A DNA stretch of 33,707 nucleotides from Armatimonadota bacterium (GTDB taxonomy: Bacteria; Armatimonadota; Chthonomonadetes; Chthonomonadales; JAMCWF01), in contig JAMCWF010000032.1 in NCBI GenBank assembly GCA_023481295.1, forward strand, positions 1 to 33,707, read 5' to 3'. Of this stretch, positions 271 to 26,419 are shown in pieces (positions within the stretch are counted from its first letter, which is position 1; each line of letters opens with the position of its first letter). The notes under the pieces were generated by a model. It did not search any database, was not told where the DNA came from, and saw only the letters and a program-made list of their open reading frames with translations. The position numbers were made by a program, and so were the translations under genes.

Positions 271-2091
271 TCAATGGGCAAAGGTGCTTCTGATTTCACG
301 CCATCCGGCACCTGCAGCGGCAGCGGCCGCAATAGCGGGAGCACGGCTGGCCTTCCCGCCGTGTATGCCCAAATCAAAGGAGTTGCAGAACTCCTGGGTA
401 ACCGCCCCGCCGCCGCAGGCGAACGGCAGCTCGATGCCGGCCTGCTTGAGATTGGCGGCAACCCTCGGAAATGCCGACATCGTGGTGGTCATCAGAGCGC
501 TCCCGATCAGCAATATGGGACGATACTGCCGCACCGCCTCCACCACTCGCTCATCGGAGACGTCAATCCCCAGGTCAATGATCTCGTACCCATTCGCTGA
601 GAGCAAAGAACGAACGATGTTTTTGCCGATGGAATGGATATCACCCTGTGCCACGAACATCACCACCGTGCCCTTGCGCTGGAGCGCTTTGCCAATCTTC
701 TTTTCACAGAGGACAACACCTGCCTCCATCGCGTCCGCAGCCCGAATGACTTGCGGCAAAAAGTAGCGGCCGCTGTCCCAGAGCTGGCTCACCCGGGTGA
801 TGCCGGCAACCAATCCTTCCTCCACCACCTGTAGCGGCGCATGCTTTTCCAGCGCAGCGATAACCGCCGATTGGGTCCTTGGCTGATCCCCCACCGTAAC
901 CGCCTCGACAACCTCATGCAGCTCGGCCGACTTTAAATCCGATGGGGATTCCGCATTTGCCGACGACAGTTTCCCGCTCTCCTGCAAAGCCGGCCGACGC
1001 GATAAAGCGTTGTATCGGACAAACAGCGGGCCATCCGACATCGAGATGCCGGCCGGCCGGCTCGCTACAAACTGGCTGCGACGCTCGGCGCTTCGAGCCC
1101 CTTCGATCATCGCCTTCACATTGGCGATCGGCGTTTCCGGCGCGATCCCGCATCCTGGAGCTACCACGTCGAAGCCGGCTTCCGCCGCTTCCACCGCTTC
1201 TTGCCGAATCCGCTCGACCAGACCATAGAGCAGTACGCCGGTGGGAGACAACGGCCCGATCAGCGCCACCTTGCCGCGGGTGGCGTCTCGTGCGATCCTA
1301 GAGTTGGTTTTTGCATCAATGCTCAACGCCGAGGCGCCCGAATTCGCCATATCGGCGATAATCCCAGCCACATCCCCGCAAATGTGAAGGATAGATGGCA
1401 CACCTATCGCTGAAAACAGTCTCTGCTCATATTTCAGCACAATTTCACGATAGGCGTCCGGCGAGATCATATCAGGACTAGCCAACATGTCTTCCACACA
1501 GATGGCATCGGCCCCCGCCTCGATCAATTTCTGGGCCAAGATGCCGGCCGCTTCAACTGACATCTCCAGTAAAGGCGCCAGTTGATTGGTGTCTTCAAGC
1601 GTCGCCAGCAGCACCTCGGAGGTTCCAGCCAACGCACCGGTCAGTGAAAAAGGCCCTACCACCCCACCGATTACCAGCGCATCCCGTCCCACATCCGCCT
1701 TCAGCCGCCTCAGTGCCCCCACCGTCCGGTTCACAGCCGGATGATCCGCAAATTCGAACGGCAGCTTAACCGCTGTTCCAATCTTGTAAGGGTGACTGGA
1801 AACTTGGGGTAAAGCTGCTTTTCCCCCATAATCAATGCGACAACCCAACGCTTCCGCCTCGGTCGTCTGCCCGAACGGCACTCGTGCCATATCGAGTCCC
1901 AACAAGTGCACCGCCCCGGCCGCCAATTTAGACATCGCGACGGCGTCCTGGTGGGCTTCGGGAAAAGCGACACCCAGTATGTCCATCTGCTCGACGGTAG
2001 CGGTCTGGTTCACCGCCCCAACGCATATCGTATCGTTCTTTCCTTGAAAGAGCGCGGCCAGCGCTCGATTCCGACTATTCATTATCGCCAT
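271..2091 (-). CDS. Fusion protein: MtaA-like (UroD-fold) methyltransferase domain + MtaC-like corrinoid-binding domain
   Basis: 606 aa. Aa ~1-340 is MtaA/UroD-like with zinc-type motif ILHICG (H236-x-C238) and VVAPGCGIAPETP (C314). Aa ~383-606 is a corrinoid protein with helical cap (VVEAVTVGDQ...) and B12 motif GDIHSIGKNIV (D484-x-H486-x-x-G), SALMTTTM, CGGGAV. Confidence 0.9.
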   Translation of the reverse strand: MAIMNSRNRALAALFQGKNDTICVGAVNQTATVEQMDILGVAFPEAHQDAVAMSKLAAGAVHLLGLDMARVPFGQTTEAEALGCRIDYGGKAALPQVSSHPYKIGTAVKLPFEFADHPAVNRTVGALRRLKADVGRDALVIGGVVGPFSLTGALAGTSEVLLATLEDTNQLAPLLEMSVEAAGILAQKLIEAGADAICVEDMLASPDMISPDAYREIVLKYEQRLFSAIGVPSILHICGDVAGIIADMANSGASALSIDAKTNSRIARDATRGKVALIGPLSPTGVLLYGLVERIRQEAVEAAEAGFDVVAPGCGIAPETPIANVKAMIEGARSAERRSQFVASRPAGISMSDGPLFVRYNALSRRPALQESGKLSSANAESPSDLKSAELHEVVEAVTVGDQPRTQSAVIAALEKHAPLQVVEEGLVAGITRVSQLWDSGRYFLPQVIRAADAMEAGVVLCEKKIGKALQRKGTVVMFVAQGDIHSIGKNIVRSLLSANGYEIIDLGIDVSDERVVEAVRQYRPILLIGSALMTTTMSAFPRVAANLKQAGIELPFACGGGAVTQEFCNSFDLGIHGGKASRAPAIAAAAAAGAGWREIRSTFAH

Positions 2092-2129: not shown

Positions 2130-3518
2130 CTAATTAATTCCGTAGTTTTTCGCACGAAACTCCGGTACCGATTGCGAGTAGATTTGGATGCACTCCTTCA
2201 TGAATTGCTCCTCATCTTCGGGCAGCTCATCCAGTGCTTTGCGGCAACTGTCCAACGCTTCCCGCTCATTTTCCGACAATGGAAGCTCCCCGGAGCGATC
2301 ACTGCTTGCGATTATTTCGGCGGCTCGTTGCATCGCACGAACCGTCCGCTTGTAATAACCTTTTTCATTGACGATCACCGCCGCGATATCCATCGCCACG
2401 TCGGGAGAGAGCACCAGCGCCTGCGGGTCTCGATTCCGGTCGGATGTGATAAGCACATCCCGCATCGTATCGGCGCACCCCATCTGGAGGGAGGCGTTCA
2501 TTTGGGCGCAATCGTAAGCCAACATTTCGGCAAAAACTTGAGGGGTGGTTCCCCCAAACATCTCACCGTACTCCACCGCTTCGTTGCTCCACAGATCGCA
2601 CACCGCCGCGCTCAAATTACCCATCAGATCGGAATGAGCGCAGGCCGAGGTCTTGCCCTCCATCGAGATCGGTTTGCCGGTTATTGCTTTCAAAATCACG
2701 CCCTCATAACCACAGTCCTTATCCGGTCCGGTCGCCCCGGCTTCAAAAGCAACCAACGATCGCACCGCCCCGGCCGGACGTACCAGCGCGGCGAAGGTGT
2801 GCGGAAGCTGGGTTTCCATCAAGCCGCCTGCCATAAACATGGCGGTATTGGAGTGAGCGCAATCGGTGTCGCCGCCCGGTAAGACGCCTTGCTGTTCCGC
2901 AATGGAGACGATATCAGACCAGAGGTGAGCCATATCCAAGCTGCCCAGGATGCCGACCGCAAACACCACCCCTCGAATATCCTGGCGCGTGACCGCATAA
3001 TTGAAAACCTCTTTTCCGCCGATCGATTCGATGCTGAGTATGTCGGCGCCGGCTTCGGCGGATGCCTTCATCCCGTTCAAGATTTTTATGTATTCCGGCG
3101 AATCCCAAAGGCCATTCTCCGGCTTGCGGATATCGGCAATCGTCGCCCTCAATGCGCCCTTCAATCCGTAACGATCGTAATACTCCTTCAAAAGCCATTT
3201 CGTGCGGTGGGCGATCTCTCGGCCCCACTCCACCTTATCCGTTAACTGAAACACATGCTCCAGCTCCATCACGATCGCCGGCGCTCCGATACCGACTATC
3301 CGATCGAGGGCATCCCTCGTGATGCGCTGGTACTCCTCCATCAGCGTATTTAAATCCTTTTCGCGACCAGGCCGTGGGGCATATTTTAACTCAGGGATGA
3401 CCGCTCCGGCGCCGATTTCGACGTCGAAACCGGCCTTAATCGGGTGAAGCGACCGTCCGAAAACCATATCTTGCCAACTTGAGTACTCGCAACTATGATA
3501 AGGCTTGATCGTCATCAA
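2130..3518 (-). CDS. mtaB: Methanol:corrinoid methyltransferase (MtaB)
   Basis: 462 aa. Close along its length to remembered Methanosarcina MtaB: DMVFG, GAGAVIPELKYAPRPG, ESIGGKEVFNYAV, GGDTDCAHSNTAMF, CGYE, MEGKTSACAHSDLMGN, DLWSNEAVEY, ENYG at C-term. E164, C220, C269 occupy the reported MtaB Zn-ligand positions. ATGA overlap with upstream gene. Confidence 0.93.
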   Translation of the reverse strand: MMTIKPYHSCEYSSWQDMVFGRSLHPIKAGFDVEIGAGAVIPELKYAPRPGREKDLNTLMEEYQRITRDALDRIVGIGAPAIVMELEHVFQLTDKVEWGREIAHRTKWLLKEYYDRYGLKGALRATIADIRKPENGLWDSPEYIKILNGMKASAEAGADILSIESIGGKEVFNYAVTRQDIRGVVFAVGILGSLDMAHLWSDIVSIAEQQGVLPGGDTDCAHSNTAMFMAGGLMETQLPHTFAALVRPAGAVRSLVAFEAGATGPDKDCGYEGVILKAITGKPISMEGKTSACAHSDLMGNLSAAVCDLWSNEAVEYGEMFGGTTPQVFAEMLAYDCAQMNASLQMGCADTMRDVLITSDRNRDPQALVLSPDVAMDIAAVIVNEKGYYKRTVRAMQRAAEIIASSDRSGELPLSENEREALDSCRKALDELPEDEEQFMKECIQIYSQSVPEFRAKNYGIN

Positions 3519-4630
3519 TTCACTCCATTGTGAGCTGTCGGACGCGGTATGCCAAACAGATCACGCTTGTAATCGAGATAGTACAGGTAATTTTCGTACG
3601 TCACATCGGGTGGCACCCGATGATCCACGTGCGGGATGTAACCGCCCTGATCGGCCAGCGGCTTCAGATGGTTTAGCTCCTTTCGAATCTCTTCCCTGCC
3701 GGCGATGAGCGCTATTTTATTCACGCCGCCAAGCAGGATAACGTCCTTGCCGAACTTGTCCCGCAGCCGGTAGGGATCGCTGTGAGAGGCGCGCTCGATG
3801 GGGAACATTCCCCGCACGCCGGCTTGAATCCAGAGGGGCGCCAACTGATTGATGTCGCCGTCGCAATCCACGTAGACGATATCCACACCGTGCTGCTTCA
3901 AAAAGTCGGTGATCCGCTTATACCGGGGAACCAATATGCGCTCAAAATCGGCCGGTGAGATAAGCGGACCACCGTTAAACGCCATATCCTCCCAGAAATC
4001 GGCGAAATCATATTGAACGCCCACCACCACATTTTCCAAAACTCTCATTATAAGGTTGCAAAGATGTTCGACCATATCTTCCATCAGATCCGGCTCTTCA
4101 ACGGTGCAGATGGCGGCCCCCTCCAATCCCATCCAGTCTCGAATTCTCCCCCACAGGCTTCCCACGTGAATGCCAAGCGGATAGGTTCGATTTTCCCACT
4201 GCTTGGTGATCTCCGACCAGTTGGACGGATACCGACCCGGTACCTCCGGATCGAGGCGCTTCTTAAACTCCTGCCAGGAGGCGCGATCCTTGAGCGTGTG
4301 ATCGATGAAATGAGGAATCGAGGTGAGTTGGCTACCGTATTTAAATATCATGCACTTGACGCCGTTACCGTCTATGATGATTTGATGGCGGTCATCCTCT
4401 TCCACCACTTTGGTTTCAAAACCTGGGGCCAGATCAAAATTTACCGGTGCCCATCGTCGCTCCGCAAATCCAAAAAAAACATCCGCCTCCGGGTTATTTC
4501 GCACCGTTTTCGGCAACCCCTGATCGTGCCAAGCGACGATGGTCTCATCCCAATACCCAAACTCTTCATCGGGAATCCGGTCTATCGGCTGGAAATGAAG
4601 ACAGTTTATCCATCTTTCACGATGGTTCAT
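3515..4630 (-). CDS. UroD-superfamily protein (putative corrinoid methyltransferase-associated)
   Basis: Likely start MNHRERWINCLHFQPIDRIPDEEFGYW at 4630, with AAGGAG upstream; this removes the overlap with the previous gene. UroD-like end ...VDCDGDINQLAPLWIQAGVRGMFPIE...VILLGGVNK. Confidence 0.8.
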   Translation of the reverse strand: MNHRERWINCLHFQPIDRIPDEEFGYWDETIVAWHDQGLPKTVRNNPEADVFFGFAERRWAPVNFDLAPGFETKVVEEDDRHQIIIDGNGVKCMIFKYGSQLTSIPHFIDHTLKDRASWQEFKKRLDPEVPGRYPSNWSEITKQWENRTYPLGIHVGSLWGRIRDWMGLEGAAICTVEEPDLMEDMVEHLCNLIMRVLENVVVGVQYDFADFWEDMAFNGGPLISPADFERILVPRYKRITDFLKQHGVDIVYVDCDGDINQLAPLWIQAGVRGMFPIERASHSDPYRLRDKFGKDVILLGGVNKIALIAGREEIRKELNHLKPLADQGGYIPHVDHRVPPDVTYENYLYYLDYKRDLFGIPRPTAHNGVN

Positions 4631-4655
4631 CGGTGTGGTCTCCTTGGTGGTCGAA

Positions 4656-5450
4656 TCAGCTCTCAATCACTTGGGGCTGGGGATCGCTAAGCTCATCGGT
4701 CGCTTCGATCACCCTCTCATCATAGGTGGGTCGGATGGTCATACCGGGTTCAATAATGATAAAGTCGTCGCTATCCCACTCCCCGTCAATCCAACTTCTC
4801 AACATATTAAGGGTGGCCGGTATCTCTTCATAAGCCCAGCCGTTTTGTCGGCAAGTCTCCTGCACTCGCCGATCCATTTTGAGGTGATCAAGGAAGTCAT
4901 GTCGAATGAAAGAGCCCCGGGCGTACTTTTGGCGCCACTGCATGCCAAGCTCCATTAAATAACGCGCGTTCTCTTCACCATATCGCTCAATCAAGCTATC
5001 AAGGTCTTCACCGAGCAGCTCGCCGACCTCGTTTTGCTGGATGTCACGCCCAACCCGCCGCGGGCCTTCCAGCCAGCCGGTGCTGTAGTAGTAGCTGCCC
5101 GGTCGTTTCATAAAGTGATCGAGATAGCGCTCGCGTGACCCGATCAGGAAGGTGAGGCAGTCATGGGCGCGCGGGACGACCAGCTTGGTGTCGCGCGCGG
5201 TTACGCCATCCAACAGGCGATTGCAGAGGCCGTAGCCCAAAAGTATGGCGTCGAAGTGATTGGGTGAGGTGGCATCAATCCTCTGTTGAATTTCGGCCGC
5301 GCCGTTCATCGGCCTTTCATGATGCGCCTGGGAGAGAAACTCAAGGCAGATCGTGTTGCGGGAGGCGGCAACCACCGCACAAATTTCCCGGGTTGCCACC
5401 TCGCACGCGATTACTTTTAACATTAATGGAGGGGATTCATCATTTGTCAT
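4656..5450 (-). CDS. DUF1638-like protein
   Basis: 264 aa; LKVIACEVATREICAVVAAS... and AILLGYGLCNRLLDGVTARDTKLVVPRAHDCLTFLIGSRERY resemble the DUF1638 family. Confidence 0.75.
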   Translation of the reverse strand: MTNDESPPLMLKVIACEVATREICAVVAASRNTICLEFLSQAHHERPMNGAAEIQQRIDATSPNHFDAILLGYGLCNRLLDGVTARDTKLVVPRAHDCLTFLIGSRERYLDHFMKRPGSYYYSTGWLEGPRRVGRDIQQNEVGELLGEDLDSLIERYGEENARYLMELGMQWRQKYARGSFIRHDFLDHLKMDRRVQETCRQNGWAYEEIPATLNMLRSWIDGEWDSDDFIIIEPGMTIRPTYDERVIEATDELSDPQPQVIES

Positions 5451-5477: not shown

Positions 5478-7739
5478 TTAGAGCACCGGCGATTCGTGCA
5501 TCGCTTTGAGCCTTGCCCAGCGCCGATCCACCTCTTGCTGAAGATCGGCCACCACATCGGCGTATTCCGGCTTCAAAAGATGAGCGGAGGCCGCACCCAT
5601 CAAAGGCACCATATCGGCAACCGGGCGCTTTTTGCCGAGCGCTTCCGGATTATACGTCAAGGTGGTGATGCCATGTGCGATTTTCAACAGCGGAAACATA
5701 CAGGTATCAACCATCGTGCGGGCGATTATTGGACCGTCCTCCCCCTTTGTGCCCCAGTTTAAGGGACAGGTGGAGAAAGCCTTCAGAAAGGCGAACCCCC
5801 CGTTTCTAACCGTCTCCTGCGCTTCTCGTGCCTTCATCACCGCATCCTCATAGTGGCTTTCGCAGACGGATGCAATGTAGGGTGCATGGGTGCCCCTTAA
5901 TATCTCCACCATATCCTTGGAATGAAACGTTTTGCCCACCTGTGCCTTGCCGACCCGGCTGGTCGCCGTCATCATGCCTTTAAAACCGGTATAACAAAGC
6001 TGAGCGCCGGTATTGGCGTAGATATTGTTGTCGTACTCCAGGTAGATGAATGGGTGGTTTCGCAAGGCGGCGCCGATGAGCTGATCCATCCCGATGTCGC
6101 CCGAGCCGTCACCGCCTACCACCAGAAGCGTCATATCTCGATCCACGCGGCCATGCTTTTTCAGCCACTCGTAATAGGCGACAATGCCGCTGGCGGTGGA
6201 GGAGCCGTTGTGAAACAGGTTGTGGGCGTATGGAACTTTAAAGGAGGTGAAGGGGAAGCCGGAGCTGGTAATCTCGGCGCAGCCGGTATTGTAGACTAAG
6301 GCGACTTGCCCGTCAATTCCCTTTAAAACCATTTCAAGGTTCAAAAAAGCGCCGCAACCAGGACAGGCGGAGGTCTTGTCAATCCGATTCGGCATATCGG
6401 AAGCAAGCGTCTTCAATACGCTGACATTCATTCGGCTGCCCAGCTTTTCATTCAGCGAGATATCGGTCTTTTCCACAATCGGCGCCGGCGCTTCGGGCGG
6501 GTTGAGTATTTGCTGCTCCGGATCGCCCTCCCAGTGTCCATAGTAGTCAAAATCAGCCACCGCCTCACCATGGTCAGCGATGAGAGCCTGGTCGTAAAGC
6601 TCAACTGCATCGTGAAAGCTGAAGTTCAGCCCACCCAGGCCGTATACACGGTTGATGATTCTTGCCGAATTATGCCTGGCTTGCAGCAGCGCACCAACCT
6701 CGTTGGCTAGGTAGGAACGGTAGGCACCGTACTCATCGGCTCGATCAGCCACCATCAGGGTTCGGACTCCTTCAAGGGCGTCGGCCAGCTCGTCGGCCGG
6801 AAACGGTCGCAACACGCTCATCGAAACGAGGCCGACCGATCGGCCGCTAGCCTTGATCCGGTCCACCGCATCCTCGCTGGCGTGGGCGGCCGAGTTTAAA
6901 ATCAGCATCGCAACCGGTGGATGATCTTCCATCCCCACTGTGCTGACCATCGAGTAGCGCCGCCCGGAGATTTTAGCGTACTCCTGGAAAATGACGGGCA
7001 GCAAGCGGTAAGCGTCCTGCATTGCCAGATGAAGCTGATATTTGTTGTTGATTAAATCGTCATTCATATAGGCGCCGAACGTCTTCGGCCGATCGAAGTC
7101 TATGTACAGGTCGCGAGGTGGTTTCGGCCCAATGAAACCCCGCACGATACGGTTGTCCGCAAAGATTTGAAAACGTCGAGTGCCGTGACTGGTATGAAAT
7201 CCATCGTAAGCGACGACACAGGGCAGCTGAACCTGTTCGGCCCACTTCAGCGCAATGATATTCATATCATAAACTTCTTGAACGCTCTTTGCCAGCAAAA
7301 TGAGCCATCCCATGCCAAGGATCGACATCAGATCGGAGTGGTCGTTCTTAATGTTCAGCGGTGCCGAGACGGTTCGGGTGGCTAGATTCAGGACCATCGG
7401 AATGCGTAGCCCGCTGATTGCCGGAAGCTCCTCCATTTTCAAAAGCAGACCCTGGGCGGAAGTGGCATCCACAACCCGGGCGCCCGCTATCGCTCCACCG
7501 GCACAAATTGATATGGCGGCCAGTTCACTGGTGGCCGGCACAAAGACCATGTCCACCTCACCGCGTGCGACGCGGGCCGATATCTCTTCACCCACATCGC
7601 TGGAAGGGGTGATTGGATAAAAGCCCTCCAGCTCATAGCCGATCGCCGCTATGGCCTCGGCGGCCGCTAGATTGCCCCCTCCAATGCACACCTTTTGTTC
7701 GATCGCACGGTCGATTATCGAATATGCTTTTTCACTCAT
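5478..7739 (-). CDS. 2-oxoacid:ferredoxin oxidoreductase, fused alpha+beta subunits (PFOR-like)
   Basis: 753 aa. Alpha part: GFYPITPSSDVGEE, ATSAQGLLLKMEEL, RTVSAPLNIKNDHSD. Beta part: SACPGCGAFLNLE, YNTGCAEI, GGDGSGDIGMDQLIGAALRN, DNNIYANTGAQ (TPP binding). Confidence 0.88.
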   Translation of the reverse strand: MSEKAYSIIDRAIEQKVCIGGGNLAAAEAIAAIGYELEGFYPITPSSDVGEEISARVARGEVDMVFVPATSELAAISICAGGAIAGARVVDATSAQGLLLKMEELPAISGLRIPMVLNLATRTVSAPLNIKNDHSDLMSILGMGWLILLAKSVQEVYDMNIIALKWAEQVQLPCVVAYDGFHTSHGTRRFQIFADNRIVRGFIGPKPPRDLYIDFDRPKTFGAYMNDDLINNKYQLHLAMQDAYRLLPVIFQEYAKISGRRYSMVSTVGMEDHPPVAMLILNSAAHASEDAVDRIKASGRSVGLVSMSVLRPFPADELADALEGVRTLMVADRADEYGAYRSYLANEVGALLQARHNSARIINRVYGLGGLNFSFHDAVELYDQALIADHGEAVADFDYYGHWEGDPEQQILNPPEAPAPIVEKTDISLNEKLGSRMNVSVLKTLASDMPNRIDKTSACPGCGAFLNLEMVLKGIDGQVALVYNTGCAEITSSGFPFTSFKVPYAHNLFHNGSSTASGIVAYYEWLKKHGRVDRDMTLLVVGGDGSGDIGMDQLIGAALRNHPFIYLEYDNNIYANTGAQLCYTGFKGMMTATSRVGKAQVGKTFHSKDMVEILRGTHAPYIASVCESHYEDAVMKAREAQETVRNGGFAFLKAFSTCPLNWGTKGEDGPIIARTMVDTCMFPLLKIAHGITTLTYNPEALGKKRPVADMVPLMGAASAHLLKPEYADVVADLQQEVDRRWARLKAMHESPVL

Positions 7740-7772: not shown

Positions 7773-8777
7773 TCAGGACGCTTTTCGTACGCTCTTGTAT
7801 GATGCCGCTGTGTTTGCAAGGACGACCTCGGGATTGTCCGCTTCCTGCACTTTCGTCAGCGCCCTGCCGTTCTTGGTATCGGGGCAGACCATCACACACC
7901 GGTTGCAACCCTTGCAATAGTCGTAATCAATGCCCATCATCTTGCCGTTTACGAAGACGATGGAGCCTGGATCGCTGCAGGCGTAGTAACATTTCACGCA
8001 ATGGATGCATGCATCCGGGTTAAACAGCGGCATCTGACCGGTGCGTGAGGCTCCATGTGTTTTGCTATAGGAACTGCTTAAAGCGTTGATCAACACGCCG
8101 CCCGGTCGCTGGGTCAGATAACCAATCACGCCACCCTGTGGCTTAGAGTAAGGCTGATGCTGATACTTGCCGTCATAGGGGAAATCTTGAAACTGAGCGG
8201 AGGAGATGCCTTCGTAAGCCTTCAAATTTGCTTCCACCACCTTTGGCCAGGTGACGGTCAGCATTTCGCGAGCCGCCTGATCGGGAAAGCCAAGCACCTG
8301 TATCAGCAGCCCGAACACCGGAATGTTAATCCGCGACCTTGCTTCCGCCGCGATACGGGTCGCATCCAAACAGATAATTTTGCCGTCGGCAAGCTGCAAC
8401 CGATCGCGAATTGCAGCCGGGCTCTCGGTCGTATTGACGATCACGGTGGCCCTGGGTTGAAGCCCCACATTCAGACGCATCGGCTCGATGAGCTGCTCCC
8501 GCATAATCGCCAGAATGTGAGGGGTGGAGAGAGTTCCGCTTGTGCGGACCGGCCTGCCTAGCTTGCAGAGCCGAATCGAAACATCGGTTGGGGTCCCTTT
8601 TTTTTCTGAGCCGTACTGCGCATCAAACGCGCCATCCAGATTGAGCTTGTCAACCGCGATTTTGAAAAGGAGCTTTCCGATTGTATTGGCGCCGTCACCA
8701 CCCAACGCAACCAGCTTGACATTGCAATACCCCAGCTCATCCTCATAACAGAGATCGAATTCCTCTTCGGTTTTCAT
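7773..8777 (-). CDS. 2-oxoacid:ferredoxin oxidoreductase, fused gamma + delta (2x[4Fe-4S] ferredoxin) subunits
   Basis: 334 aa. Gamma-like domain (ALGGDGANTIGKLL...GSEKKGTPTDVSIRL) followed by CIHCVKCYYAC and CKGCNRCVMVCP clusters. Confidence 0.87.
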   Translation of the reverse strand: MKTEEEFDLCYEDELGYCNVKLVALGGDGANTIGKLLFKIAVDKLNLDGAFDAQYGSEKKGTPTDVSIRLCKLGRPVRTSGTLSTPHILAIMREQLIEPMRLNVGLQPRATVIVNTTESPAAIRDRLQLADGKIICLDATRIAAEARSRINIPVFGLLIQVLGFPDQAAREMLTVTWPKVVEANLKAYEGISSAQFQDFPYDGKYQHQPYSKPQGGVIGYLTQRPGGVLINALSSSYSKTHGASRTGQMPLFNPDACIHCVKCYYACSDPGSIVFVNGKMMGIDYDYCKGCNRCVMVCPDTKNGRALTKVQEADNPEVVLANTAASYKSVRKAS

Positions 8778-8961: not shown

Positions 8962-11900
8962 TCAGCCCCAGCGTATGGTAAGCCGGTCGCCGACCCTTAA
9001 AATCATCGGCTCGGGGAATTGGAGCGATGTCCACTCCCCAGCCCTGGATGCGACCACCGATACTATTTTACCGTTTACCAGCACCCGATACCTTACGCCG
9101 GTATGCCCAAGGCCGGCCTTTACCGAGCGCAACGGAAGCTCGCCTTCCACTAGCTCAATCGTTTGGGCCGCCGAACTCTGCATGATGATGCCCCAACATA
9201 CCGGCGTCGTAAATACCGAGCGGTGATCGGTCGGCGCCACTCGAGGTGAAAATGCAATCCAGCCCTCCGGCGCGCTGTAATGGAATCCCTGGATGGCCAT
9301 CAATACCGTCCAGATGCTCATTGGGCGAAAGTAGTGGTTTCCGCACTCGAAATGGTTCCAAGGCCTGCCCATCTTTAAGTAGCGGTCTTGAACTTCGCGG
9401 ACAACTTGCAGCCCCTGCTCCACCATACCGTTATAAATCATATTGGAGGCCAGCGCGTACTCCACCCCACTCCAAACCGCCGACCATTGGCCGCCGCGCG
9501 GCATCGCTTCAGCCGGATTGGGCCACCAGCCGTTGATGATGCTGCCGTTCTGACGATTACGGGTGTAGATCGTGTTCAGAGTGGAAAGCAGCCGCTCTTT
9601 GGGATAAGGGCTTCCCAATCCGGGGTGCAGCGAGGCGTACCAAACCGCATCGGTCGCCGCCGCTAAGCTGGCGTGATCCCGTTTTCCCGTCTTGGGATCG
9701 TAGTACAGATCGTAATATTGACCGTTCCACAGCTCTTTCTGAAAATTCGGCTGCGCCTTGTGATACCTTTGGCTGAAGATATCCGCCTGTGCGGTCTGCC
9801 CCAGCGCCTTTCCCATCTGAACCGCCGCCCGCAGCGCGGTCAAATAGAGCGAGGAGACATATACCGAAGTCCCGTACATGGGCCATCCATCATAAGTTTG
9901 ATCGGCGCCGGTGTCATTGGGAAGGCCGTCACCGTCGGTATCGCGGCGGTTCATATCATCCAGCGCCGCCACCACGTGGGGCCAGTGGAATTGCAAGAAT
10001 TGGCGATCACCGATCCATTGCCAATCCCGGTAGGCCATCAAAACGTATTGGGACATCATATCAATCCGGTAGTATCCATCCGGATGATCGAAGGTGGCCG
10101 GGAAAAAGTGGGGAATGTCACCGTTAGGCGCCTGGTGGTCAACGGTTATATGGATTTCACTACGCTCCAGCTTGGGGAATAGAACGGTGATCATGTTAGA
10201 CCCATAGTAGCTCACATCCGTCGTTTGCAGGCCGCAACAGCCCTCACCCTCCCATACTCCGAACTTCCCGTCCTTATCCCACCAAGAATCTTTGGACATC
10301 GTGGTGAGTTGGGCATTGATCGCGTCTAGTATTTTCCGCTCGACGCGGGCCGAGTAAAACTCACGGCGAAACCGATCGGTTTTTCGGCGCAGATCAGGCA
10401 AACTCGCAATGACATAATCGGCGACTTCATCCGCATCCTCAAACCAGTTTGAATACATATGTCCGATCTGATTCCGATCGGCATCGAGGTGATTGGGAAA
10501 GTGCCAGGTTAGGACAAACGTAACCTTGCCGCCCTTATTCGGCTCCAGATGCAAACGCTGGGTGACGGCCGCATTACGGACATAGCTGCTCGAGTCCAGC
10601 GTGCCCTCCGGCTCAAGCTTGCCGTCTTGATTGAAATCGGTCCAGATATCCTCGAAATCGTTCCAGGCCACTCGATACGCCCCTCGCCCTAACCCGGTCA
10701 GCGTCATCAAACCAAACGATTGCCAGGTCGCCGGCATATGGTCGGGCTGAAGGTAGCTGGAACGAGATACATAAGCGACCATTGTCCGATAAAAGCTGTC
10801 GACCCGATCCAGCGTCGGCGGCCATCCACCCCACACCGATGAAGCGTAAACCAGGGTTCGCCCCTTCCCATAATGGCCGGCAATCACCAGCGGCTGCCCG
10901 GCGAATCCGTTCGCGATGACGGTGCCGCCCGGCTTTACCCCGGCGATCAGGTTATAGCCGTTGATGGAGGGAAGAGTCAGATTGCTAAATACCTGTTGTG
11001 CCAGCTCATTTTTCACCTTTGAGATGCTGGTCGCCTGATTAACCGCATCGAACCGGTTTAGGAAGTTAACGGGCAGAATGCCTTCCAAGATCGAGCCGTT
11101 CATGTGCCCCCAGCGATCGCTCGAATAGCCGTAAAAGGCATCCCAGCCGCCGGAGTAGATCAGCCCCATCCCCGCATTGACCGCCTCTTGCAGTATCTTC
11201 ATGTCGGCGTCTCCCAGCATGTCTCGAGCGTGAGTGATCTCGCCGACCCAAACGCAATCGAACCGCCGAGCCAGCTCCTGGCCATTATCGGCTGGAAGCC
11301 GAATCGCATTGGAGCCCTCACCAGTCGCCCAGGTCACCTTAAGCCCACTCACTCCGTCGAAGGCGCTTGCAAAGCCGCCATGCACACGATCGGAGACGAG
11401 CAATAGTCGAATTGGCTTCGACATCGAAGGCGGCTTACCGCCGCTTAACGCTTCCATTGACACCCGAATCCCTTTGGATGTAGCGCCCTTGCGATTGCGG
11501 GTTCCCCGGAAATTAAGGTCGTACCCAGCGCCGTTTCGCTGGCTGGCCATAATCGAGACATCCACCGGATTGGAATTCGGGTTATGAACATTAAAGGTGA
11601 AGATTGCGCAAGGCAGCGCGGAATCTTTTTCGTTCAGTGGAATGAAAGGCGTCCACGCATCCAAATGAATATTCACCGGCAGGTTAGGATCGGCATAATC
11701 GAGCATCGCGAACGGGTGCTCGCCGACATATCCGATCTCGCTCACGCCCTGAGCCAATCCCCTCGAATTCAATTGCAGTAACCGCGAGAGGGTCTCCACA
11801 CCGGTGTTGACCCACACGGCGAACAGCGAATCCTCAAGCCGAAGTTTTGATGCCCAGTCGTTGAATATTTGCCACTCATAAAAGGTACCGTCGGCGCGCA

Positions 11901-12084
11901 GCTCCACGGTACCGGCGCCGATCCCGCCCATCGGGATGCCGGAGTTCATAGGCGGATTCGCTCCAATGACGGTTTGCTCTCCCTGGACCGGCTCAACGCT
12001 CGTCATCGAGTAGCCGGCCGCACCAATGGTTGCAGTTACGGCTATGGTCTTCACGAATTCACGCCGCGAAATTCCACCTTTCAA
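8962..12084 (-). CDS. GH116-family glycoside hydrolase with Tat signal and an inserted GATase1-like domain
   Basis: 1040 aa. Tat-type N-term GGISRREFVKTIAVTATIGAAG; GH116 N-domain GIPMGGIGAGTVELRADGTFYEWQIFND; catalytic-type motifs GVWEGEGCCGLQTTDVSYYGS and GADQTYDGWPMYG; insertion aa ~222-442. Confidence 0.85.
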   Translation of the reverse strand: MKGGISRREFVKTIAVTATIGAAGYSMTSVEPVQGEQTVIGANPPMNSGIPMGGIGAGTVELRADGTFYEWQIFNDWASKLRLEDSLFAVWVNTGVETLSRLLQLNSRGLAQGVSEIGYVGEHPFAMLDYADPNLPVNIHLDAWTPFIPLNEKDSALPCAIFTFNVHNPNSNPVDVSIMASQRNGAGYDLNFRGTRNRKGATSKGIRVSMEALSGGKPPSMSKPIRLLLVSDRVHGGFASAFDGVSGLKVTWATGEGSNAIRLPADNGQELARRFDCVWVGEITHARDMLGDADMKILQEAVNAGMGLIYSGGWDAFYGYSSDRWGHMNGSILEGILPVNFLNRFDAVNQATSISKVKNELAQQVFSNLTLPSINGYNLIAGVKPGGTVIANGFAGQPLVIAGHYGKGRTLVYASSVWGGWPPTLDRVDSFYRTMVAYVSRSSYLQPDHMPATWQSFGLMTLTGLGRGAYRVAWNDFEDIWTDFNQDGKLEPEGTLDSSSYVRNAAVTQRLHLEPNKGGKVTFVLTWHFPNHLDADRNQIGHMYSNWFEDADEVADYVIASLPDLRRKTDRFRREFYSARVERKILDAINAQLTTMSKDSWWDKDGKFGVWEGEGCCGLQTTDVSYYGSNMITVLFPKLERSEIHITVDHQAPNGDIPHFFPATFDHPDGYYRIDMMSQYVLMAYRDWQWIGDRQFLQFHWPHVVAALDDMNRRDTDGDGLPNDTGADQTYDGWPMYGTSVYVSSLYLTALRAAVQMGKALGQTAQADIFSQRYHKAQPNFQKELWNGQYYDLYYDPKTGKRDHASLAAATDAVWYASLHPGLGSPYPKERLLSTLNTIYTRNRQNGSIINGWWPNPAEAMPRGGQWSAVWSGVEYALASNMIYNGMVEQGLQVVREVQDRYLKMGRPWNHFECGNHYFRPMSIWTVLMAIQGFHYSAPEGWIAFSPRVAPTDHRSVFTTPVCWGIIMQSSAAQTIELVEGELPLRSVKAGLGHTGVRYRVLVNGKIVSVVASRAGEWTSLQFPEPMILRVGDRLTIRWG

Positions 12085-25099: not shown

Positions 25100-26419
25100 C
25101 TAAGCGGCTCGCGGTGCGGCTGTCTTGTCAGGCATAATCGAGGTGGCTCGCTCTTTAGCAATATCGGGTAAAGCTCCGATGTCATAAGGATAAACGGCCG
25201 CTCCCATTCGAACCTCTGGAATCACTCGGCTGAAGAGATGGCGGAACTGGTTTTGCCAGGTCATCACCACCTCCTCAATTCTTGGCTTAATGTGCTTCAC
25301 TGAATCGCCGGTATAGGGCATAATAATTGCGATCTCCGCCTCATTCATTCGGCAGGTGATGTCGGCGCGCCGCACCGTTTTCCGAATCGATTTACCTAAC
25401 GCGCTCAGTGCATCCTGCAATCCCAAGTTACCCACTCCGCTCGACAACTCCCGTAGATTCGCAACGCCGACATAGAGAACAGCCACCTCGTGCGTGCTTC
25501 TGCTCGCCCGCTGTAACTCTTCGCTCAGACGATACTCAAAGTACCTCGCGTTGTACAGGCCACTGCTCGGATCGGTCACCATCTCCAACGAAGATGATTC
25601 GGATCGCTTGCGTCTCGATTCTCGGAGTTCGGTTAGATGAGCCTCCTTGAGCGCTTCGTTGGCAAACATCTTCTTTAATTTGCGGGTGGAGATTCGCAAT
25701 ATGTGCGAAACGTAGTTGCATGAAATTCCAAGCTGCTTGGCGATATCGGTTTGGCTCATTTCACGGTAAAAATACTCGTAAATGACCCGCTGCTCCAGCT
25801 TTTTCAGCCGCTCCAACACCCCTTCCAGCACCACCTTTTCTTCCAGTGGAAGCTGAAAATTGACCACCGGCTCGGCCAGAGTCCGCTCGAGATCGGTGGC
25901 ATTGGTATCATCATCCTCTTCACCGGATGCATCCAATGAGCCGACTTTAAAGACTTCGCGGGTAGTCAATATCTCTTCGACGCCTTCTTCCGTCATTCCC
26001 AGCAAGGCGGCGATCTCAGCGGTGGTCGGCGCGCGACCGAGTTGTTGAGTTAAGGCGTCAATGGTTCTGGTTATCCGCTGGTTAAGCTCCTGGAGCCAAG
26101 CGGGTTCCTTGATAATTTTCCCGCGATCCCTCAGATAGTGCTTGATCTGACCGATCACGAAATGAGTTGCGTAGGTGCTGAATTTTATTCCCCGCTCCGG
26201 ATCAAAACCGTCAATTGCGGAAATCAGCCCAATATATCCTTCCTGGGCTAAATCTTCGATCGGCTCGGCGGATCCCGCAAACCGGTGAGCGATGCTTTCC
26301 ACTAAGCCCACATACTGCTCAACCAGTAACGCTCTGATCTCGTTTCGGTGTGTCTTTTTGAATTGAACTAGGAGCTGGTTTACTTCACCATCCGTTAATT
26401 TGGAGGATTTTAGCTTCAT
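25100..26419 (-). CDS. Sigma-70 family (SigB/F/G-type) sigma factor fused to degenerate GGDEF domain
   Basis: 439 aa. Aa 1-~258 sigma regions 2-4 (EDLAQEGYIGLISAIDGFDPERGIKFSTYATHFVIGQIKHYLRDRG; TDIAKQLGISCNYVSHILRISTRKLKK). Aa ~278-430 GGDEF-like (TDPSSGLYNARYFEYRLSEEL...RMNEAEIAIIMP). Confidence 0.85.
   Translation of the reverse strand: MKLKSSKLTDGEVNQLLVQFKKTHRNEIRALLVEQYVGLVESIAHRFAGSAEPIEDLAQEGYIGLISAIDGFDPERGIKFSTYATHFVIGQIKHYLRDRGKIIKEPAWLQELNQRITRTIDALTQQLGRAPTTAEIAALLGMTEEGVEEILTTREVFKVGSLDASGEEDDDTNATDLERTLAEPVVNFQLPLEEKVVLEGVLERLKKLEQRVIYEYFYREMSQTDIAKQLGISCNYVSHILRISTRKLKKMFANEALKEAHLTELRESRRKRSESSSLEMVTDPSSGLYNARYFEYRLSEELQRASRSTHEVAVLYVGVANLRELSSGVGNLGLQDALSALGKSIRKTVRRADITCRMNEAEIAIIMPYTGDSVKHIKPRIEEVVMTWQNQFRHLFSRVIPEVRMGAAVYPYDIGALPDIAKERATSIMPDKTAAPRAA

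Follow-up and report, generated by a model that had tools for sequence, protein, structure and literature searches.

A fused protein with an MtaA-type and an MtaC-type corrinoid domain encoded next to mtaB in Armatimonadota

Introduction

The architecture of the protein analyzed here has a parallel in CmuA (614-617 aa), in which a URO-D domain is followed by B12-binding_2 and B12-binding domains. CmuA acts through its UroD domain as both the MTI enzyme and the corrinoid carrier, and CmuB is the MTII enzyme (PMC13222342). Our literature search on fused MtaA and MtaC proteins returned only one remark on Moorella and the precedents of the Mts and CmuA proteins. In Moorella thermoacetica, the gene Mothe_c14370 was mentioned in 2026, without being studied, as a fusion of mtaA and mtaC (PMC13391211); we liken it to our protein by description only. 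In the methylsulphide:coenzyme M system of Methanosarcina acetivorans, MtsD, MtsF and MtsH carry a corrinoid and a methyltransferase part in one chain (PMC10762971). Compared by description only, these proteins differ from our fusion in that they have no separate MtaB partner. The available part of the report on bacterial Mlp proteins describes, for type 1 mlp clusters, MtaA-like proteins encoded with a corrinoid protein and RACE and without a clustered tetrahydrofolate (H4F) methyltransferase; in these systems the carrier is separately encoded, MtaB is not reported in that part, and methyl-selenide or thiol chemistry is proposed (PMC10418091). CmuA, the fused Mts proteins and the unfused Mlp proteins are thus precedents for parts of the system described below.

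The same three components as in our locus, MtaA, MtaC and MtaB, occur as separate proteins in other bacteria (loci L030, L032, L033, L035 and L198), and these are the nearest relatives in all our trees. In such operons mtaA and mtaC are separate genes, and the cluster often includes a CobW GTPase and RACo. CODH/ACS was present in the three genomes with unfused operons that were tested, whereas it was not detected in the genomes with the fusion. Among the loci inspected, L029, L030, L032, L033, L035 and L198 combine mtaB and mtaC with a UroD-type mtaA, several of them with a CobW-family GTPase and a short RACo that has a C-terminal 4Fe-4S domain. Here we analyzed a stretch of 33,707 nucleotides (the window) from an incomplete (65%) metagenome-assembled genome (MAG) of an Armatimonadota bacterium, in which the original prediction had placed MtaA and MtaC in a single polypeptide.

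Results

The fusion gene lies on the minus strand (271..2091) and consists of one open reading frame with an ATG start and no internal stop, which translates into 606 residues. Pfam detected a URO-D domain (residues 7-333, 2e-60), a B12-binding_2 cap (residues 392-459, 6e-16; 715..918, minus strand) and a Rossmann-type B12-binding domain (residues 475-567, 8e-20; 391..669, minus strand). The best solved relative of residues 6-330 is the methylcobalamin:CoM methyltransferase of Methanosarcina mazei (4ay7, E 1.5e-64) and that of residues 387-602 is M. barkeri MtaC (2i2x_B, E 9e-54); both similarities are far beyond chance. The original prediction had listed H236-x-C238 and C314 as Zn-type ligands (codons 1384-1386, 1378-1380 and 1150-1152, minus strand), and these residues do align with the H, C and C of 4ay7 and are invariant across all UroD homologues checked. 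The B12 motif D484-x-H486-x-x-G489 (H486 codon 634-636, minus strand), S531-A-L533 and the glycines 560-562, which had also been named beforehand, are all present and invariant in the 5 fusions that we found. An AlphaFold2 model of moderate quality, built from a 5-sequence alignment (mean pLDDT 69) and used for domain boundaries and fold only, predicted 2 folded domains separated by a stretch of low confidence (residues 336-385), and a fold search with this model returned 4ay7 and 4ay8 as the top PDB matches and 2i2x_B for the second half. The open reading frame, the Pfam domains, the PDB relatives and the recurrence of the arrangement in 5 assemblies bear out the presence of an MtaA-type and an MtaC-type domain in one polypeptide.

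We then located the boundary between the 2 domains by alignment with unfused proteins. The C-termini of unfused bacterial MtaA proteins map to residue 336 or thereabouts of the fusion (that of L035, for example, reads LLAMVEVAKRH followed by the stop), which sets the end of the N-terminal MtaA-like domain (residues 1-336; 1084..2091, minus strand). Unfused MtaC proteins have an F-V-R-Y motif approximately 10 residues from their start; its counterpart in the fusion is F357-V-R-Y360, of which F357 and Y360 are invariant in all 5 fusions. An Ala/Ser-rich linker had been proposed for residues 341-382 approximately, but in this alignment residues 347-388 or so, and with them most of the supposed linker, match the N-terminus of stand-alone MtaC. 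Because MtaA ends near residue 336 and the N-terminus of MtaC is retained, the true junction comprises only about 10-14 residues. It falls at residues 337-346 approximately (1054..1083, minus strand), which are not conserved between the 2 families of fusion-bearing genomes, and is followed by the retained MtaC segment (residues 347-391 approximately, with FVRY at 357-360; 919..1053, minus strand), which has low AlphaFold2 confidence. An internal ATG at residue 350 was considered as the start of a stand-alone MtaC and rejected, as it has no conserved counterpart in the genome of the sister species.

The mtaB gene (2130..3518, minus strand) is found 38 bp upstream of the fusion gene. Its product (P0002, 462 aa) matches PF12176 over the full length (637 bits, above the gathering score, model positions 2-460 of 460), has 2i2x_A as PDB relative (E 7e-144), and was assigned from these matches and from alignment as a methanol:corrinoid methyltransferase (MTI). 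It carries E164, C220 and C269, which we take to match the sites where M. barkeri MtaB has its Zn ligands. The predicted separate MtaB partner is thus present as a full-length gene beside the fusion. P0002 narrowly missed the NCBIfam MtaB equivalog cut-off (621.7 against 720), so that methanol as the substrate is a strong inference rather than proven. MtaB-family genes were found in 47 of the 292 genomes of the phylum; of 25 non-fusion examples inspected, 15 adjoin UroD2-like or MtaC-like genes and none adjoins a fusion. Also widespread in the phylum is a divergent MtaB-like paralogue (L172-L196) that shares 37-45% identity with P0002 and often adjoins UroD2-like and corrinoid genes.

Upstream of mtaB, all on the minus strand, are the genes for a divergent UroD-family protein of 383 aa (3515..4666), relatives of which adjoin MtaB-family genes elsewhere in the phylum; a DUF1638 protein identified by Pfam (4656..5450); and a 2-oxoacid:ferredoxin oxidoreductase identified by Pfam and NCBIfam, with fused alpha/beta subunits (5478..7739) and fused gamma/delta (ferredoxin) subunits (7773..8777). 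Mutant fitness data link the DUF1638 family to B12 reactivation, and in Phaeobacter it is required for B12-dependent methionine synthesis (PMC5764234). The order oxidoreductase, DUF1638, divergent UroD, MtaB and fusion is kept in the genome of a sister species (G056). The window contig stops just past the fusion gene, and in G056 the same cluster runs on downstream, where it encodes a UroD protein, then an MtgC-like corrinoid protein, the reductive activase RACo and another UroD protein. In the fusion genomes of family f25 only mtaB and the fusion gene are clustered, and RACo and another corrinoid protein are encoded elsewhere. Genomes of this family (L096-L098, L140-L141) also encode, adjoining MetF, a MetH-type protein of 576-602 aa with homocysteine and pterin domains and no B12 domain. 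Elsewhere in the window, a 439-aa protein (25100-26419, minus strand) joins sigma-70 regions 2, 3 and 4 to a GGDEF (diguanylate cyclase) domain in a single chain, a direct fusion that looks unusual, and a GH116-type protein of 1040 aa (8962-12084, minus strand) contains a GATase1-like stretch (residues 294-423) inside its N-terminal region.

To determine the distribution of the fusion we searched genomes within and outside the phylum. Within its own phylum, 5 of 292 genomes (a set that includes the window genome) have it, and these 5 belong to 2 families: the copy of G056 is 88% identical to the window copy, and the copies of 3 species of the other family (G206, G207 and G208) are 46-47% identical. 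In all 5 genomes mtaB neighbours the fusion. Samples from two other phyla, 398 genomes from the one to which the Bacillota-type genome L030 belongs and 396 genomes from that of L035, yielded no fusion. When 85,462 species genomes were scanned with two peptide patterns, 50 loci were retrieved; on inspection 3 of them were truly fused, and these were the contigs of G056, G206 and G208; the scan is limited to genomes matching both peptide patterns and is therefore not a census. Full-length matches in another phylum (L197-L199, L203-L206, L211 and L212) were rejected as fusions since stops had been read through, and where both genes were readable they are adjacent and separate. Full-length methanogen matches (L051 and L053, for example) were likewise separate genes on inspection. 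The fusion, found here in a few uncultured bacteria, is thus rare and real.

Phylogenetic trees were built for each domain and for MtaB. In the UroD-domain tree the fusions share a clade (support 98) with MtaA proteins of bacteria, and many of these proteins are encoded in mtaB/mtaC operons of Bacillota and other groups; the clade stands apart from both the methanogen enzymes and CmuA. In a careful subset the 5 fusions form one clade (88/82). In the corrinoid-domain tree the fusions form one clade (97) within a 26-member MtaC clade (100) that includes 2i2x_B, far from CmuA. The MtaB partners of the fusions also form one clade (81/81), and the concatenation of MtaA, MtaC and MtaB unites the 5 fusions with support of 100/99, which makes a single fusion event likely. 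CmuA shares 25.6% identity with the fusion and its domains lie elsewhere in the trees. The original prediction held up in that neither domain groups with CmuA, which is a long branch in the UroD and corrinoid trees; its remark that the domain order differs from CmuA in detail was mistaken, as the Pfam order of CmuA is identical. A candidate assignment of the fusion as a CmuA orthologue is ruled out by both domain trees, and the shared architecture makes CmuA a parallel case. The sister lineages of the fusions are bacterial methanol operons with separate mtaA and mtaC, in which mtaA can immediately precede mtaC in the same orientation (76 bp apart in L035, 63 bp in L198, where mtaB follows, and 81 bp in L199). 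The simplest account is that mtaA and mtaC, as separate genes, were joined in frame a single time, and the adjacent pair of the unfused relatives is a plausible starting point.

Finally, we compared the fusion with family models and analyzed its genome context. The fusion passed the model for the MtaA/CmuA subfamily (TIGR01463, 262.5 bits against a cut-off of 235.4) and scored below the equivalog of the methanogen methylcobamide:CoM methyltransferase MtaA (NF040654, 298.6 against 400). It also scored below the MtaC equivalogs NF040669 (230.7 against 450) and NF040655 (219.1 against 420), a cut-off that the unfused bacterial MtaC of L035 fails too. ComA was not detected by profile search in four 97%-complete fusion genomes (a search confined to ComA, as distinct from genes of the cysteate route and of bacterial CoM synthesis). 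Since the equivalog cut-offs were missed and ComA was not found, the name MtaA stands in the sense of an MtaA-type domain of the broader subfamily and is not supported in the strict sense of a CoM-methylating enzyme. Profile searches did not find CdhC or Fhs in the fusion genomes, which indicates that they do not carry out Wood-Ljungdahl acetogenesis, while MetF and MetH-type proteins are present in the 97%-complete ones. A search for the pterin-binding domain (PF00809) returned 2 proteins per near-complete fusion genome, the MetH-type protein with homocysteine and pterin domains and a stronger match that we read, from sequence and context and without a dedicated model, as a probable dihydropteroate synthase. 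No stand-alone AcsE-type pterin methyltransferase was found in these genomes by this search, which was confined to PF00809 as distinct from the MtrH/CmuB family (PF02007). All these absences hold at the sensitivity of profile searches in draft genomes. Two positions distinguish the bacterial from the methanogen enzymes: Gln75 (1867-1869, minus strand) and Glu200 (1492-1494, minus strand; at the end of a strand in the AlphaFold2 model) are invariant in the 5 fusions and 22 bacterial MtaA proteins, whereas methanogen enzymes of the MtaA/MtbA type have apolar residues there, Leu/Ile and Ala/Ile, respectively. Gln75 and Glu200 may thus mark enzymes with a different acceptor.

Discussion

We propose, with a probability of roughly three in four, that the fusion unites in one chain the second half of a methanol methyltransferase system of the bacterial type, and that this chain is loaded by MtaB and unloaded in cis by its own UroD domain. 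We infer catalysis, transfer in cis, the acceptor and the roles of RACo and DUF1638 as follows. MtaB would take the methyl group from methanol and load it onto the cob(I)amide of the C-terminal MtaC domain. From the resulting methyl-Co(III), the N-terminal Zn-type UroD-fold domain would hand the methyl group on in cis to a soluble acceptor, and Co(I) would be restored. The corrinoid domain would swing back and forth, meeting MtaB for loading and the UroD domain of the same chain for unloading; transfer in cis is presumed because carrier and unloader share one chain, and the AlphaFold2 model does not bear on it. RACo, probably together with DUF1638, would rescue cofactor oxidised to Co(II). The Zn ligands by themselves do not prove the role of a second methyltransferase because UroD-fold enzymes that act on the donor also have a Zn site.

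H4F is the acceptor that we favour, at about even odds. Behind it, but to be taken seriously, comes a thiol, most likely homocysteine, so that MtaB and the fusion would form a methanol:homocysteine methyltransferase, an alternative methionine synthase. Activation of a thiol as Zn-thiolate is the chemistry of MtaA, MetE and MetH. This chemistry (for MetE, see PMC539065) and the invariant H-x-C...C ligands speak for such an acceptor, as do the thiol methylation proposed for related bacterial MtaA-like proteins (PMC10418091) and the lack of a B12 domain in the MetH-type protein of the f25 genomes. Against this, that MetH-type protein has another candidate carrier, encoded beside RACo, and the genomes of the unfused sisters have Wood-Ljungdahl enzymes, for which methyl-H4F is the expected product.

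A different division of labour, which we consider unlikely, would follow the logic of CmuA: the UroD domain would act as the first methyltransferase and charge the corrinoid domain of its own chain from another donor (a methyl halide or an O-methyl compound), MtaB would be a second loader, and a separate enzyme would unload the carrier. The identical domain order and the combined MTI and carrier function of CmuA, with CmuB as MTII (PMC13222342), are consistent with this, and the other UroD proteins of the operon could share the carrier. However, neither domain groups with CmuA and the UroD domain groups instead with MtaA proteins from mtaB/mtaC operons, mtaB adjoins every one of the 5 fusions, and the search of the near-complete fusion genomes returned no stand-alone unloader of the AcsE type.

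Coenzyme M as the acceptor, as in methanogens, is very improbable given that ComA was not found in the four 97%-complete genomes and that the bacterial clade has Glu200 and Gln75 at positions that are apolar in the methanogen enzymes, even though the fusion belongs to the MtaA/CmuA subfamily and its nearest solved structure is the M. mazei enzyme. That 2 genes were merged by a lost stop in the annotation or assembly of a single MAG, one only 65% complete, can practically be dismissed because 4 further assemblies hold the same fused frame, each beside mtaB, so that the frame is continuous across 2 families with conserved residues flanking the junction.

The fusion of MtaA-type and MtaC-type domains is natural evidence that these 2 components act as a pair, and it means that the CmuA-like layout arose a second time, independently. 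It also shows UroD-type MtaA outside acetogens and methanogens, as its hosts seem to belong to neither group, and the small unit of mtaB and the fusion gene makes the acceptor of bacterial UroD-type MtaA directly testable. We give an even chance to the full proposal that, in bacteria in which neither acetyl-CoA synthase nor ComA was detected, a single MtaB-loaded chain carries the methyl group of methanol and unloads it through a UroD-fold domain onto H4F or homocysteine, replacing the pterin-type MTII of acetogens. If true, this would be a previously unrecognised minimal two-protein route from methanol into general one-carbon metabolism.
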